22,863 nt of DNA from a virus. The stretch lies in the IMG/VR virus record IMGVR_UViG_3300030108_001292, positions 1 through 22,863 of that record. The stretch is one strand, 5' to 3'. Shown piece after piece: positions 1 through 16,725 of this stretch; position 1 is the stretch's first letter, and the number at the start of each line of letters is the position of its first letter. The position numbers and the translations under genes are program-made. The notes beneath the pieces are model-generated. The model made no database searches and was not told the origin of the DNA. It was given only the letters and a program-made list of their open reading frames with translations.

Positions 1-2156
1 GCTATTTGATTTGGTTTTACTTTGTAAACTGTGCCATCTGTAACATCCTCTAAAATTAGTAAGTCATTAGATGTATCTACAGTAACACTTGAACCATCCG
101 TTAAGTTAGATGGGTCAACTGTTAATGATACTGCACCAGTTGCTGCACCTCCAGCTAAACCAGAGTTACTTGCAGTATTAACAGCAGTTATATCACCAAC
201 ATCTGGAGCAGATATTTCTATAGTTCCATCTCCATTTGTTATTGTTACACCTGTACCTGCTGTAAGTGTTGCTACTGCTGGACCAGATGTACCACCAATA
301 AGTAGCTCACCATTTGCATCCATAGCAACAGCAGCTAATGTATCTGTTCCAGAATCTTGTGTAATAATTACAGACTTGTCTGCAAAAGATGTTGCTCCTG
401 TACCACCACTTGCTACAGCTAATGTTGCAGATAATCCTGCTGCTGTTCCAGATGTATTCTGATTACCTGCTGAATTAACACCTGGTAAATCAATATTACC
501 CGTACCATCAAAAGATACACCACCAATATTTCTTGCAGTTTGTAAAGCTGTTGCAGTAGCTGCATTACCAGTTGTAGAACCAGATGTTCCAGAAACATTA
601 CCTGTAACATTACCTGTAAGATTTGCTGTAATACTAGAAGGAAGTCCTATTGTAACTGTATCTGTAGCACTTACTGCTACTTCTACTTCATTAGAAGTAC
701 CACTAAATGTTATTGTGTTGCCATCACTAATTGTTTGTGATGTAGAACCATCTGATATTGTAAAGCTGTTCATATTACCAACACCAGTACCAGACAAGAA
801 TGCACTTCTAGTTTGTTTTTTTAGACCACTAGCTGTGTCATCATAAATAATAATTAAATCATTATTGTCAGCAGTTCCTTCGTTACTAAGATTAGGAATA
901 TCTACAGCAAAAGTGTTAGCAGATAAACTAAGTCCAGAACCTGCAACATTACCACTTGTATTTATTGATATAACAGAATCTCCACCCATATTTGAGTGTG
1001 ATGAGCAGTAATAATAAAGATTATCAGCAGTAGCAGCATTGACAACTATTTGTGTATAACCACCAGTAGAACCTGCAGAACCTGCAATCGTAACTCCTGT
1101 AGTATATGCAGAACCAGAGTTGTGTGTACCATTTTTAGTTGTAGATAATCTAAGTGGATGTCCAGAGTTTGTGTTATCTGATTGGTCAAATCTATAAGTT
1201 ACTCCTGGAACAAGTTGTATGTTAGCTGTAAGTTCTCCATCTAAATAATATCTATTACCAGAACCTGGATTAGCTACTGTAACGGCAAACTCTACTATTG
1301 CTGTATTGTTTTCTAAGTTTATAGTTTTGTTTGTAAGTGTTTGTGTGTCATCTAAATCAACTACTGTAGCATCAGATACAGCAGTATTTAATTGTGCCAG
1401 TGTTGTTGTTAGTGTATTGTTTGCTAAATTTATAGACTTGTTTGTAAGTGTATCTGTAGAGCTTTCAGTAACCACTGTAGAATCTACTGCGATACTAATT
1501 TCATTACCACTTGCTGATGTATCTATACCTGTTCCACCTGCAATATCTAATGTTTCAGAATCTAAATCTATAGATATTGGTCCACCACTGTCAGCAGTAA
1601 CATCTAAATCTTCTGCTGTTATTTGTGTATCTACATAACTTTTAACTGCTTTTGCTGAAGGTAATGTTGTATCTGTACCAGCAGTAGATGATAAGTCTGT
1701 ATCTAATACACCAGCCTTTAAGTTATCTACTTCTAAATTAGATATTGTATTGTTATCTGCATCTATAGTTTTGTTTGTAAAAGTTGTTGTAGAAGTAGCA
1801 GAAGGCACTGCATCTATTCTGTCATTTAAATCTTCTATGTGTTGTTGTAATGGCGACATACGCACAACTGAACCAGATGCGTGTGATAAACCAGAAGTTG
1901 CAGCAGAACCTGTTAGATATCTTTTATTTATATTGTCTAAAGTAAGTGTTTTTGTACCAGCATTTATAGATGTAACAAGTACAACTTCTCTATTTGTTGC
2001 ACTATCTGGATTTAAAACTAAATAACAAGGCGCTGTAAGTGTGTTTGATGCAGAATCAACGACAGAGTTTACTGTCATAGTTAAATCTGATGCACCAATA
2101 GTACCTGTTAAAGTTGTTTCAAACGCATTTAATAAGTTAGTTTCTTGTGCTGTCAT
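1..2156 (-). CDS. Tail fibre / receptor-binding protein with cupredoxin-like insert (partial at left edge)
   Basis: This frame is open for 718 codons from an ATG at 2156 and still open at the window edge, so the C-terminus is missing. It starts one base after the stop of the preceding tail gene. The N-terminal ~115 residues (MTAQETNLLN...) end in a short helical stretch (LQQHIEDLNDRID) and probably form the virion-attachment part. Residues 125-290 hold three LTNKTI-type repeats. Residues 289-396 look like a cupredoxin fold with His333, Cys384, His387 and Met390. The rest is Gly/Ser/Thr/Asn-rich beta-repeat sequence (LTGNVTGNVSG, IGGVSFDGTGNIDLPGVN, VASGGTGATSF) typical of marine phage fibres. 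It should bind the host surface. Base composition matches its neighbours. Fibre identity is inferred from repeat style and last place in the tail module; the exact receptor is unknown. Confidence 0.85.
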   Translation of the reverse strand, partial: MTAQETNLLNAFETTLTGTIGASDLTMTVNSVVDSASNTLTAPCYLVLNPDSATNREVVLVTSINAGTKTLTLDNINKRYLTGSAATSGLSHASGSVVRMSPLQQHIEDLNDRIDAVPSATSTTTFTNKTIDADNNTISNLEVDNLKAGVLDTDLSSTAGTDTTLPSAKAVKSYVDTQITAEDLDVTADSGGPISIDLDSETLDIAGGTGIDTSASGNEISIAVDSTVVTESSTDTLTNKSINLANNTLTTTLAQLNTAVSDATVVDLDDTQTLTNKTINLENNTAIVEFAVTVANPGSGNRYYLDGELTANIQLVPGVTYRFDQSDNTNSGHPLRLSTTKNGTHNSGSAYTTGVTIAGSAGSTGGYTQIVVNAATADNLYYYCSSHSNMGGDSVISINTSGNVAGSGLSLSANTFAVDIPNLSNEGTADNNDLIIIYDDTASGLKKQTRSAFLSGTGVGNMNSFTISDGSTSQTISDGNTITFSGTSNEVEVAVSATDTVTIGLPSSITANLTGNVTGNVSGTSGSTTGNAATATALQTARNIGGVSFDGTGNIDLPGVNSAGNQNTSGTAAGLSATLAVASGGTGATSFADKSVIITQDSGTDTLAAVAMDANGELLIGGTSGPAVATLTAGTGVTITNGDGTIEISAPDVGDITAVNTASNSGLAGGAATGAVSLTVDPSNLTDGSSVTVDTSNDLLILEDVTDGTVYKVKPNQI
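968..1292 (-). other. Cupredoxin-like domain encoded inside the tail fibre gene
   Basis: Residues 289-396 of the fibre form a compact, less repetitive block between fibre repeats. It contains RYYLDGEL, then SGHPLRLS with His333, a glycine-rich stretch, and finally YYYCSSHSNMGGD with Cys384, His387 and Met390. One upstream His plus C-x2-H-x2-M near the domain end is the type-1 copper ligand pattern; the C-x2-H-x2-M spacing is that of amicyanin. Whether copper is bound is inference, since the fold may be used only structurally. Confidence 0.65.
1302..1787 (-). repeat. Three LTNKTI(N/D)xxNNT repeats in the fibre shaft
   Basis: Three copies lie at about 1746-1787 (FTNKTIDADNNT), 1413-1457 (LTNKSINLANNT) and 1302-1347 (LTNKTINLENNT). 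The NNT triplets are at residues 135, 246 and 283, spaced 111 and 37 codons, so the larger gap is exactly three times the smaller. The motif is familiar from marine phage fibres and suggests a repeating trimeric beta shaft. The two expected intermediate copies are not recognisable, so the exact periodicity may be chance. Confidence 0.7.
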
Positions 2157-11042: not shown

Positions 11043-12065
11043 CTAGTTTGGCCTCCCAGCGATGCTACGAAGAATAGAAGTCCTAGTGTTCCTTGCAGAA
11101 TAATTTTCTCCTAACCTTGCTTTTTCATTTTCAGTAATCCTATCAAACTTTTCTTTCATTCTACTTGCTGGGTTTATTTGTGTAAGTCCTTGTTCATCAA
11201 TGGCTTGTTGTACATTTTCTGCTGCATAATTACCGTATTGACCTTGTAACAAATCATCACCAGTAAAAGCTGGTTGTGCTTGTGCAACTTGTCCTAGTTC
11301 TTCTGATTGCTTATAAGCTGCCTCTGCTTGTTTATATAATTCATTTGATAATAACTTTATTTCATAAGGTGAAGGGTCACGGTTAAGTTCTCTTGCATAA
11401 AGATTCTTAACTGATTGTGCATTTTCTGCTGGGTCTTGTGGTAAAAACACCTCTGTATCTGGCATTATAGGAACTGGATTAGCAACAAATTCTTTTAAAA
11501 CATTTCTCCATGCTGAACCATTTTGCTTTTCTATTTCTGTAACACCACCATAATTAGCTTTTCTAAGTACAATTTCAAAAGCATTTTGTGTTGGTGTGTC
11601 CCATTCTCCTGGAATAAATCCATCACCTACACTAAGTAATCTTGCATTTATTAAGTCTGCTTGTATTCCAGCAATCTGTTCATCTCCTATTGCAGAAAAT
11701 AAATTTACCAAATCATTTTGTGTATAAAAATCTGTAGCACCTTCTCTTGGTGGTACGTATGTTGCTGGCACTCCAATGTAAGCATCTGTGTTTCCAAACA
11801 ATCCAGTTTGTTCTCTTGCTGCTGCAACAGCTGCATCATCTGATGTAATACCAGCTAAATCTTGTCCAGATATAGCAAAATCTACAACATATTGAGGTAT
11901 GTTGTATGCAAGTAAAAATGTTATTGCCTCTTCAATAGTATTGGCATTTAAAATATCTAGTCTTTGGTCTGCTGTAATTCCTATTTTATTTGTACCTAAT
12001 GTAGCATCATCATTAATTTGTGTAATTAATTTCTCTACTCTGTTAAAAAATTCATCAACTGTCAT
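11043..12065 (-). CDS. Probable internal virion protein (340 residues)
   Basis: An unrecognised helical protein whose start overlaps the end of the giant gene by 11 bases. Residues 1-75 are helical (VDEFFNRVEKLITQINDD). The middle carries ATYVPPREGATDFYTQNDLV and an acidic GDGFIPGEWDTPTQ turn. Residues ~225-265 contain NLYARELNRDPSPYEIKLLS, a motif style shared by several phage internal proteins of this gene block. The C-terminus is Arg-rich (LGENYSARNTRTSILRSIAG). No membrane helix or active-site motif is visible. Position between the giant protein and the transglycosylase favours an ejected or inner-core protein. Confidence 0.6.
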   Translation of the reverse strand: MTVDEFFNRVEKLITQINDDATLGTNKIGITADQRLDILNANTIEEAITFLLAYNIPQYVVDFAISGQDLAGITSDDAAVAAAREQTGLFGNTDAYIGVPATYVPPREGATDFYTQNDLVNLFSAIGDEQIAGIQADLINARLLSVGDGFIPGEWDTPTQNAFEIVLRKANYGGVTEIEKQNGSAWRNVLKEFVANPVPIMPDTEVFLPQDPAENAQSVKNLYARELNRDPSPYEIKLLSNELYKQAEAAYKQSEELGQVAQAQPAFTGDDLLQGQYGNYAAENVQQAIDEQGLTQINPASRMKEKFDRITENEKARLGENYSARNTRTSILRSIAGRPN

Positions 12066-15000
12066 ATAGTCCCTTTAATAATTCTATATCCTCTTCTGCC
12101 TCACGTAATTCTCTTTCAAATATTTCTTTTGCTATCGGAGCAAATTCTGGCTTTGTAACCAATATAGCCTTTATCTTATCTCTTAACAAGGTCCTATAAG
12201 GTGCTAGTTTACTTGCACGTCTAAACGATGTATCTGTATAACCACCTGGTAGTTTTTTTGTATCTGCAATTACTTTATCTCTCAACATAAGATATTCTTT
12301 TAATCCTTCTGCTGCTGGATTGCCAGCAAGTCTTGGGTCTAATACATAAGTTGTTGGATTAATCCATGTGTATAACTCATCAATCAAATCATCTATCTCT
12401 GGTTTAGTAGGAGTGTAATCAATACTTCTACCATATCCTGGGTATCTCATAGCTATCTCTGCTTTTTTATTTCTTTTAGCTTGTATTGATACTTTGTCAT
12501 TTTTATTTAAAAGATTGTTCTTTTTAAGAAATGCCTCATATTCTAAATTACCTAACAGAATATTTTTTGATTGTACCCATTGTTCAGCAGTCTTTGGAAC
12601 TCTATCACCACTTAAAAGCTGTGCATAATATTGTTCATATAAAAATTCAGAATCTGTTTCGTCAATCAAAAATGCGTAAGTCAAATCAAATTTTTCTACA
12701 AGTTCTGGATTTTTTCTTTCCCAAACAGCACCGTCTTGTGTTACTGGTCTTTTCTTAACAGTAAATGTTCTACCAGTTGCCATAGCTACTGGGTCAAAAC
12801 CAAATCTATCAGTGAATACTTGTACAGCTGTAGTTGAATCTTGTACAGCATTCTGAATATTCCAATACTCTTGCGCTAATGTTTCAAATAAATAAAAGGT
12901 ACCTGTTTGGTCAGATATTTCATATTTAGGTGCAACTGGTCCAGCTGGTCCAATAGCTTGTGCAATTGACCTTATGATAAATATTTTTCTTGCATAATCA
13001 GATGCTAATTCAATACCTGCACTTGCACCTTCTGGTGTATTATCTTCTATTTGTCCTGCATATAACAATGCTTTATAAACATCAATAGTGGTATTAGAAA
13101 ATTGTCTTTTAGCCTCTGCACCACCAATTTCATAAGCTGTTCTTAATTTTTTTAACCATGATGGTTCTGGAATTGTTGAACCTAAAAGCTCACCTATATT
13201 TTCTACTCTTGGTGGAGAAAAATCACCAAAGAATAATGTTTCTTCCCATTTACCTGGTCTTAATAAATTAAATTGTTTATTTATAACAGCCATAGGTACG
13301 GTTATTGTTGGACCGAATCCTGGCACAATATTACCTGCTATGTTTAGTGATTGTGCAAATACTGGTAAATTAACTTTTACACCGTTCTCTTCTAAATCTT
13401 TAAACATAAATTTTTTAATTAATCCTTCTCCTGGATAACCAAACAACTCTTCACCAGTGTTAGGGTCTTTGTAAAAGAATCCTTTTTGACCTTCATCATC
13501 AAAAATAGGATTTGGTTCACGACCAGATTGCACTACTTGTTGTACTCTTCGTAAAGGTCTTAGACCTTCTGATTTAAGTAATCTTGCCCATGTTGTAAAT
13601 ATTTCTAAGTATGCCTCACCGAATGGGAAGATAGCTCTTGTAGCATTACCAAGTCTTGTTTTAGTTGTTACATCATAAAGTAATTTTTTTGTTTGCGTAA
13701 GTGCATGTGATGATGCTAATTTATCTACAAGTTCTACACCACTTACACCACCTCTTACACCTTCATAACTTTGTAGTTGTTTTAATACTTTTTTTTCTAA
13801 AGCAGTACCAGTTGCAAGTCCTGCCTCTTCTGCTTGTTTTACAACTTTTCTAAGTGTTGGTGCATTTAAGTGTTGACCAAACTCTCCTACTTTTTCCCAG
13901 TAATGTTTTTTAAATGTTGGCGCTCTTGACATTGTTTTTGTTGGCACTGTCATAAATAAATTAAATGCCATATCTACATAATCATCAAGTATTCTTGTTT
14001 GTCTTGATATAGAATTTTTAAGTTCTCCTCTTGCAGATTCTGGTAAAACTTTTTTATATTTTTTTATAAAATCTTTTTTTATCTTTTCTTGATTTTTTCT
14101 AAGTTGTGTAGTTATTGATGTATATTCCTGTTCTTTAAGTTGACCAGCCCAATACTTTTTCATATCTACATTTTTAAGACCTACAAGTTCTTGTGCTGTT
14201 AAATCTTCATCTGCTAATGCTTTTAATAAACCTTCATTACCATTTTCATCAATCCAGTTTCTTGCAGCTCTAGGTGTGCCAGCTTTTGCTGTAGTAGTTG
14301 CAACTTTACCACCAGTAGCTTGTGCAACTGCAGCATTTACATAATGAACAAACTCTTCTGCTTTTGCAGCTCCTGGACTACTAGAAAAACCTGCACCATT
14401 AAAAGCATGACCTTTTGCTCCTGTAACTTTTCTAACATGTTTATTTAAAACATTTCCTGGAGTTTGTGTTTCTTTTATTATTTTTCTAAGTTCAGCACTT
14501 CTTTTTGCAGCTGTAGGTTGTAGTTGTGCTTGTGCAAGTCGTCTTGACAATGGGTCAAACTTATGTTGCATAAAGTTTCTAAATGATGCCTCACCCCAAG
14601 CTCTTACATTTTCTGACCTGGTAACAGTAGTAAATTCACCTGTTGCACCGTAACCTCTTCTTATTGCACTAGGTGTACCTGCACCATTTAAAGTTACATC
14701 AATAAAACTTGCATTATCCTCAAAGCTGCCTAATAAAGTTTTTCCAGATTCTTTTTCTTTACCTATAACTCTTGCAATCATTTGTGCTGGATGTGTAATA
14801 ACATTTGTTACACCAGATGCCATCATTCTTAGTTGTTCTTCTAAAATCACACGTACTGTCCATGCTGGTCTTAAAAGAACAAGAGGTTTAAACAATGCAC
14901 CATAATACCAATCCATAAATCTTGTTACTGTTTCTGCACCACTGTTTGCAGCAATCTTACTTCCAATTTTTCCAAATTTTTTATCTAGTGTTTTTGCAGC

Positions 15001-16725
15001 TCTAATTACATCTCTTGTGTTTGGTAAAAATATTTCATCTGCAAGTTGCTGTGCAGTAACTGGGTCAACAAGTTCATCAACTCCATCTAACTTACCACCT
15101 TGTAATTTTTTAAGAACATCTGTCAATGGTAGGTTATCTCCAGTTGATTCTATTGCATAACTTCTTACAATACCTTTTTCTTTTCTTGCACCAGATATAA
15201 ATTTAGCTTGTACTTCTAATCCACTATCAACAAGAGTTTGTTGAAACTTAGTTAAGTTTTCTTTACCACCTAAAGCCTTTACAACTTGTGGTTTAAAATC
15301 TCTTGTTATAAAATCATTTACTAATCTAGCAGTAGCTGTAGGTGCATCTGCATCATTAAGTGCTTTTATAGATGCAGACATAAACTTAGTTCTTATTGCA
15401 GCTTGTTGTCCTTTATCCATTTCTGATGTTGCTAATCTAATAAATCTATTTAATTTAACAAAAGCGTCATCTTTGTTTTCGGTAACTAATCTGTTACCGT
15501 ATGTTCTCTCTAACATTTTTGTTAAACGATTACCTTTTTTTCTGACGGTTGGAACATTACCTGCTGTAGCCTCTAGCAATAGATTTTTCTTTACAAGATT
15601 TTCTGTAAAGTCTGCATCTATTTCTTCAAAAGACTTACCTTTATTTTTAACTTTAAATTTTTCTAACTCATCATAAAATTTAAAATCATCAATGTTATTT
15701 TTAGATGCAGCAATAATGTCAGACGTAGAGTTTTCATATAGAAATTTTTTAAATCCTACACCAGCTTTACCAGCTAAAAACTCTTGTGTAGTAGGACCAA
15801 ATATACTTTTTCTTGCACCTTGTAATAAACCAGTGTTTTCAAAAATCTTAGCTGATTTACTTAGATTATTTAATTCTACAAATGTAGATTTAGATTTTCC
15901 AAGTTTACCAACACCAAAACCAAGTAATGCTACTGGGTCAGCAAATATCTGTGCAATAATATCTATTGCTCCAGTCATGTAATTATATGCTTTTGTGCCT
16001 GGTTCTATTATTTCATCAATAGGCTTAAATAAATATCTTCCAATTGTAACTGTAGGTTCTAATCCAGCAGCTCTAAATTTTTCTGCACGTTCACCAACAA
16101 ATTGTATTTGATTTGCTTTTTTCTTTTGTTCTTCGTATATTTGTACACCTAAAATATTATCTCTTACAAACTCTCTTGCAGCTAACGGGTCAACACCTGC
16201 AGCTAATAAATTTTTATATTCATCAGTTTGTGTTGGGTCTGTTGTACCTAAGAACCATCCTTCACCTAAATCTAAATCTTTTCCTGCAGCTTTTGCAGAA
16301 TCTATTTCACCTAACAAAGTTGCTTTACTTAATTTAGCAGCCTCATCATGTGTAAGTCCTTGTTGTCTGCCTTCTAAATATCTAACACCTCTTGGCGCAC
16401 CACTTTCCCATAAGTTTTGAAATCCTATAAAAGCACCTCTTACTGCTCTACGTGTAGCATCTTTTAGTTTTTCAAATCCATTTTCTTCTTTTAAAACAGA
16501 TTCCTTCATTACTATTTGACCTAATCTTGGGTCATCTTCTGCTATACCTAGTTTTACTGCACCTACTAAAGAACCTTTACTAATTGTTGGATAACGTTTG
16601 ATTATTGCTGATGCAAGGTTAGCTTGTTCTTGATTGACTGAACTAGGTGCTACAGCTTTACTTATAGCTCTTTTTGTTTCTGAATCATCTTGAAACGATG
16701 ATGCGTCAAAAGTGCTGTATGACAT
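12055..16725 (-). CDS. Giant internal virion / ejection protein (1556 residues)
   Basis: This is the largest gene in the window, about one fifth of it. It is rich in Lys and helices, with no signal peptide. Notable parts are an N-terminal head-like region (residues 1-220); an amphipathic segment AYNYMTGAIDIIAQIFADPV near 240; a Lys-rich middle; WYYGALFKPLVLLRPAWTVR followed by ILEEQLRMMAS near 625-650; RLGNATRAIFPFGEAYLEIF near 1050; and a long acidic-basic helical C-terminus (REAEEDIELLKGLYDS). The hydrophobic or amphipathic patches could insert in the membrane after ejection. T7 gp16 and similar proteins have this size and the same neighbour, a transglycosylase, although there the activity is fused. 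Polymerase, methylase or protease motifs were sought and not seen. It could also be a multi-domain inner-capsid protein. Confidence 0.65.
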   Translation of the reverse strand: MSYSTFDASSFQDDSETKRAISKAVAPSSVNQEQANLASAIIKRYPTISKGSLVGAVKLGIAEDDPRLGQIVMKESVLKEENGFEKLKDATRRAVRGAFIGFQNLWESGAPRGVRYLEGRQQGLTHDEAAKLSKATLLGEIDSAKAAGKDLDLGEGWFLGTTDPTQTDEYKNLLAAGVDPLAAREFVRDNILGVQIYEEQKKKANQIQFVGERAEKFRAAGLEPTVTIGRYLFKPIDEIIEPGTKAYNYMTGAIDIIAQIFADPVALLGFGVGKLGKSKSTFVELNNLSKSAKIFENTGLLQGARKSIFGPTTQEFLAGKAGVGFKKFLYENSTSDIIAASKNNIDDFKFYDELEKFKVKNKGKSFEEIDADFTENLVKKNLLLEATAGNVPTVRKKGNRLTKMLERTYGNRLVTENKDDAFVKLNRFIRLATSEMDKGQQAAIRTKFMSASIKALNDADAPTATARLVNDFITRDFKPQVVKALGGKENLTKFQQTLVDSGLEVQAKFISGARKEKGIVRSYAIESTGDNLPLTDVLKKLQGGKLDGVDELVDPVTAQQLADEIFLPNTRDVIRAAKTLDKKFGKIGSKIAANSGAETVTRFMDWYYGALFKPLVLLRPAWTVRVILEEQLRMMASGVTNVITHPAQMIARVIGKEKESGKTLLGSFEDNASFIDVTLNGAGTPSAIRRGYGATGEFTTVTRSENVRAWGEASFRNFMQHKFDPLSRRLAQAQLQPTAAKRSAELRKIIKETQTPGNVLNKHVRKVTGAKGHAFNGAGFSSSPGAAKAEEFVHYVNAAVAQATGGKVATTTAKAGTPRAARNWIDENGNEGLLKALADEDLTAQELVGLKNVDMKKYWAGQLKEQEYTSITTQLRKNQEKIKKDFIKKYKKVLPESARGELKNSISRQTRILDDYVDMAFNLFMTVPTKTMSRAPTFKKHYWEKVGEFGQHLNAPTLRKVVKQAEEAGLATGTALEKKVLKQLQSYEGVRGGVSGVELVDKLASSHALTQTKKLLYDVTTKTRLGNATRAIFPFGEAYLEIFTTWARLLKSEGLRPLRRVQQVVQSGREPNPIFDDEGQKGFFYKDPNTGEELFGYPGEGLIKKFMFKDLEENGVKVNLPVFAQSLNIAGNIVPGFGPTITVPMAVINKQFNLLRPGKWEETLFFGDFSPPRVENIGELLGSTIPEPSWLKKLRTAYEIGGAEAKRQFSNTTIDVYKALLYAGQIEDNTPEGASAGIELASDYARKIFIIRSIAQAIGPAGPVAPKYEISDQTGTFYLFETLAQEYWNIQNAVQDSTTAVQVFTDRFGFDPVAMATGRTFTVKKRPVTQDGAVWERKNPELVEKFDLTYAFLIDETDSEFLYEQYYAQLLSGDRVPKTAEQWVQSKNILLGNLEYEAFLKKNNLLNKNDKVSIQAKRNKKAEIAMRYPGYGRSIDYTPTKPEIDDLIDELYTWINPTTYVLDPRLAGNPAAEGLKEYLMLRDKVIADTKKLPGGYTDTSFRRASKLAPYRTLLRDKIKAILVTKPEFAPIAKEIFERELREAEEDIELLKGLYDS

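Follow-up and report, generated by a model that had tools for sequence, protein, structure and literature searches.

The window analyzed here is a stretch of 22,863 nucleotides, the first base of which is also base 1 of a 35,930-base (35.9-kb) marine virus record. The last gene of the window encodes a fibre-like product and runs off the contig end (Table 1). Since the window starts at the first base of the record, the C-terminus of the fibre is absent from the data. The same virus record encodes an SU10-like major capsid protein, and its terminase is distant from those of cultured phages, with about 26–28% identity to the best matches. Elsewhere in the window, a 1556-aa protein (12055–16725) had zero Pfam matches and is probably an internal virion protein. 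No RNA was found when the window was scanned with Rfam.

The fibre is built in part from two kinds of repeat: LTNKTI-type repeats that end at residues 274–291, and TGNV-type repeats that start at residue 514. Between them sits the domain that is the subject of this analysis. The first-pass annotation, made from the letters of the window, had noted that residues 289–396 break the repeat pattern, and the coordinates it gave for them, 968–1292, match to within one base. The four residues that it singled out as a copper-ligand set, His333, Cys384, His387 and Met390, are present as numbered, with their codons on the minus strand, and they include the amicyanin-type C-x2-H-x2-M loop that it described. 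The available part of the fibre contains only five histidines, at positions 92, 106, 333, 345 and 387; three of these and one of the two cysteines of the fibre fall within the domain. The pattern H-x(35–75)-C-x2-H-x2-M arose in 5 of 200,000 shuffles of the fibre sequence and is thus rarely produced by chance.

Table 1. Positions of the fibre gene, its repeats, the cupredoxin-like domain and the putative metal ligands in the window.
Feature	Position	Strand	Basis or remark
Fibre ORF, 718 aa inside the window	3..2156	(-)	Low end open; PHROG tail fibre, E 3e-25
Final LTNKTI-type repeat preceding the domain	1284..1337	(-)	Further copies at 1395-1448 and 1728-1781
Cupredoxin-like domain P0001, 112 residues, fibre residues 288-399	960..1295	(-)	AlphaFold2 pLDDT 91, Foldseek, homologues
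His333, putative ligand 1, directly ahead of a beta strand	1158..1160	(-)	
Cys384, putative ligand 2, final residue of the penultimate strand	1005..1007	(-)	
His387, putative ligand 3, final loop	996..998	(-)	
Met390, putative axial ligand 4, final loop	987..989	(-)	
TGNV-type fibre repeats past the domain	561..617	(-)	

The structure of the domain was predicted with AlphaFold2 from 34 aligned viral copies, resulting in a confident beta sandwich with a pLDDT of 91 and a pTM of 0.85. When this model was compared with the PDB by Foldseek, ranks 1–24 were all copper cupredoxins, with E-values from 5e-4, and included rusticyanin, pseudoazurin, auracyanin, plastocyanin and a three-domain copper nitrite reductase; rank 7 was a pseudoazurin with an engineered amicyanin loop. 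The first-pass annotation had called for such a comparison. The predicted beta sandwich does resemble type-1 copper proteins, but the TM-scores were modest (0.46–0.56), suggesting that the domain is a distant member of the cupredoxins. In the model, H46 (His333 of the fibre) lies two residues ahead of strand 48–51, C97 closes strand 92–97, and H100 and M103 are found in the loop preceding strand 108–111. Amicyanin has the same arrangement: one His shortly precedes a strand, the Cys closes the penultimate strand, and the final loop holds the second His and the Met. To control for the motif, a separate prediction was made from the alignment of a natural clade devoid of the ligands. This model again had rusticyanin, AcoP and auracyanin among its matches, so the fold call is independent of the motif. 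To judge from these models, the domain almost certainly has the cupredoxin fold, a Greek-key beta sandwich, with the four residues at type-1 copper positions, as had been suggested from the sequence.

In a first scan, all four ligand residues were found in 101 of 101 domains from the first 80 viral loci, far beyond what would be expected by chance. A wider sample of 508 domains was reduced to 232 non-redundant relatives, to which the window domain was added; four, three, two, one and zero ligands were present in 200, 3, 1, 8 and 21 of these domains, respectively. Most ligand-free cases came from a scan seeded with a ligand-free sequence, so the ratio of 200 to 29 does not reflect how often the two states occur in nature; the message of the tally is the scarcity of intermediates. 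The four ligands are thus kept or lost jointly across homologues, which the first-pass annotation had named as a point to check. Among the four-ligand domains, C-x2-H is found in 200 of 200 and H-x2-M in 199, and Pro follows the first His in 182. When viral sequences were scanned with a ligand-free stretch as the query, 84 of 86 domains kept all four ligands, and one of the other two was cut by a contig end. A tblastn of the stretch against phages had no hits, probably an effect of low-complexity filtering. In an alignment of 31 sequences, culled to below about 62% identity and restricted to those with the ligands intact, the sole invariant columns were G31, H46, P47, C97, H100 and M103; in the unfiltered set behind it, 34 of 35 sequences had all four ligands. 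A survey of the gammaproteobacterial class yielded ligands in 20 of 20 fetched domains, mostly distant lipoprotein relatives. Three relatives have a substitution of the Met ligand, to Gln in one and Lys in two (L347, L319 and L325). Gln is the axial ligand of stellacyanin.

A fold retained in homologues that lack the ligands had been named by the first-pass annotation as evidence against a copper site. Such homologues do exist, but nearly the whole ligand set is missing from them, and mostly in one cyanophage baseplate clade. Their sequences would therefore fit the loss of a metal site rather than refute the type-1 copper reading. Among seven near relatives of the fibre, identity was 80–94% within the domain, 53–90% in the preceding sequence and 39–89% in the following sequence. 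Conservation is thus higher in the domain than in most of the flanking sequence, which would suit a conserved shaft module over a fast-changing receptor tip.

The window domain was not identified as a copper protein by any of the profile models searched. It had no match to PF00127 (Copper-bind; plastocyanin/azurin) and is not assigned to that family, whereas some of its relatives do match, with the four ligands in register. Among single relatives, the best E-value on Copper-bind was 1.9e-5, and the NCBIfam plastocyanin model was matched with an E-value of 0.001; the relative L125 scored 20.4 on PF00127 against a curated cut-off of 21.2. In a profile comparison with cellular PF00127 proteins, the score was 42, compared to at most 14.8 for 60 column-shuffled decoys, and the ligands were in register. 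When the four ligand columns were masked, the score fell to 16.5, near the decoys; most of the case for homology with classical cupredoxins at the sequence level thus comes from the ligand motif. An hmmsearch against solved plastocyanins stayed below significance (E 0.15 and worse), although the ligands were nonetheless in register. Searches of PDB sequences with the single domain and with a profile of close relatives returned no cupredoxin, but mostly antibodies with insignificant E-values. Common descent with the cupredoxins is unproven by sequence alone, but is likely when fold, ligand order and ligand placement are taken together. Weak matches to PF25489 (At5g54830-like domain), an uncharacterized family, were seen in 12 of 31 relatives with a best E-value of 0.012, all of them below the family cut-off or weak.

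The type-1 copper ligands of amicyanin are His53, Cys92, His95 and Met98 (PMC12723479). The phage domain shares with it the ligand order, the C-x2-H-x2-M loop and the beta-sandwich fold, but has Pro rather than Asn after the first His and about 49 residues, rather than 38, between the first His and the Cys. The TIGR02657 amicyanin model did not match the window domain and matched 1 of 31 aligned sequences weakly (E 0.043). Rusticyanin was the best solved-structure match (E 5e-4), and differs from most members of the phage domain in having Ser instead of Pro after the first His. Its spacing between first His and Cys is similar to that of the phage domain, and its copper loop is longer, C-x4-H-x4-M. 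Both are periplasmic electron carriers, amicyanin a free one and rusticyanin an acid-stable one, whereas the phage domain is part of a virion fibre.

By tblastn, the domain was found in 357 phage records. A divergent form at the C-terminus of a cyanophage gp10-like connector was found in 347 phage records, a set that probably overlaps with the first. The organism names listed were Synechococcus, Prochlorococcus, Pelagibacter, Methylophilales, or marine or uncultured; about 350 marine phage records, from cyanophages, pelagiphages and Methylophilales phages, carry the domain. Its viral carriers comprise tail fibres, baseplate wedges and virion structural proteins, and several PHROG tail and baseplate families contain it; the domain can be internal, as in the window fibre, C-terminal, or doubled. 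Cultured phages that have it are HTVC028P, S-TIM5, P-SSM2, Mosig and MED4-213. In Synechococcus phage S-SSM4, the gp10-like connector (T4_gp9_10_N; L298:359–1537) ends in a divergent copy with all ligands present, and the neighboring baseplate wedge subunit (L298:1541–5005) has a cupredoxin-like domain as well as YHYH matches (PF14240, E 2e-22). The YHYH domain is another predicted metal site and a proposed hydrolase (PMC7824862).

Among the cellular copies, some belong to lipoproteins of SAR86 and Woeseiaceae that also have cadherin-like domains, and one secreted protein has three tandem copies ahead of a C-terminal anchor. A gammaproteobacterial lipoprotein family (L275–L291), mostly of about 450–550 aa, contains a divergent copy (HDFYLST, YYQCRNHKxMGG); two of its members had no match in a Pfam scan. 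Three SAR11 genome contigs of over 60 kb (L109, L112 and L137) encode related 587-aa proteins with the domain. The one that was scanned, from L109, has a T7-type tail fibre N-terminus, suggesting that these contigs probably represent prophages or phages caught during infection. In a tree built from 190 domains, the resolution was too low for counting transfers between phages and cells: parsimony gave seven changes, of which well-supported branches force only one.

Judged by the proteins that contain it, the domain is a module displayed outside cells, on phage tail fibres and baseplates and on bacterial surface lipoproteins. His333, Cys384, His387 and Met390 very probably constitute a pre-formed four-ligand metal site. 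The fold, the ligand conservation and the spread of the domain are computed results, whereas its metal and its function are inferred: copper is likely to be the natural metal, and there is about an even chance that the use is structural or adhesive. The explanation that we favor, and consider reasonably probable, is that of a virion-borne type-1 copper cupredoxin module, shared with host surface proteins and serving as a metal-stabilised adhesion or spacer unit. The fibre would probably fold metal-free in the host cytoplasm and acquire copper once the cell has lysed or at the surface of a host. The metal would then cross-link the last loop to the strand bearing His333, and the clamped domain would become a rigid bead, resistant to proteases, within the shaft or at the tip of the fibre, touching the host surface. 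As a counterpoint, the ligand-free clades show that the cupredoxin fold can serve tails without metal.

These same clades, together with weak CBM_4_9 matches in two members of A3 and six of A1, would suit a metal-free carbohydrate-binding or Ig-like fibre module, in which His, Cys and Met were conserved for packing or for a disulfide in the trimer. However, the four polar or sulphur residues covary, with all or nearly none present, and no carbohydrate-binding folds stand at the top of the PDB match list, making such a module highly improbable. A disulfide would conserve Cys alone; since His and Met are kept along with it, this explanation was discarded. A metal other than copper, for example Zn or Fe, might act as a mere structural clamp. 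In solution, zinc can be bound by a Cys-His-His set, it frequently takes the place of copper in cupredoxins produced recombinantly, and the three relatives with Lys or Gln at the Met position are consistent with this. On the other hand, at least 200 of the 232 non-redundant domains have retained the Met ligand, for which a zinc site has no need, and both the order of the ligands and the length of the loop match type-1 copper sites. We consider a non-copper clamp quite unlikely.

Alternatively, the copper of the virion might be put to work during adsorption at the host surface or periplasm, exchanging electrons with the copper or electron-transfer systems of the host or being offered to them, as the copper counterpart of the iron Trojan-horse proposed for marine phages. 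The full blue-copper ligand set is strictly conserved, the phage records found belong to marine picoplankton hosts, and the HxH iron motifs of marine phage fibres have been proposed to act in this way (PMC11705849), all in keeping with a redox or copper-handling device. Against this, no partner domain or redox context turned up in the window, the domain can be mid-shaft or in tandem, far from the membrane, and a type-1 site distant from its partner transfers no electrons. Adsorption could involve electron transfer or copper exchange, but the context lends this no support. A working device of this kind seems unlikely to us, electron transfer by the domain more so, and a role in copper delivery or as a lure very unlikely.

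To our knowledge, no copper protein has been described in a phage tail, and searches of the open-access literature yielded no description of a cupredoxin or type-1 copper in a phage. The nearest published idea is that iron is bound by HxH motifs in phage tail fibres, including T4 gp37 and that of alterophage R22Y (PMC11705849). Those sites share with the present domain a metal in the tail fibre, here putative, and an occurrence in marine phages, but consist of octahedral iron between the His pairs of a trimer. The available part of the fibre has no His-x-His motif, and an HxH iron site was rejected for this reason.

That many of the marine phages that infect SAR11, Prochlorococcus, Synechococcus and Methylophilales carry blue-copper sites in their fibres and baseplates and use them at host entry, through redox sensing of the cell surface or exploitation of host copper handling, is an unlikely proposition at present. 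Because cultured phages carry the domain, the question of copper is directly testable. If copper is bound, the result would name a domain in the proteins of about 350 sequenced marine phages that are now labelled tail fibre, baseplate wedge or hypothetical. Each virion would then carry several copper atoms, and phages would contribute to the copper pool of the sea, in line with a proposal already made for iron.
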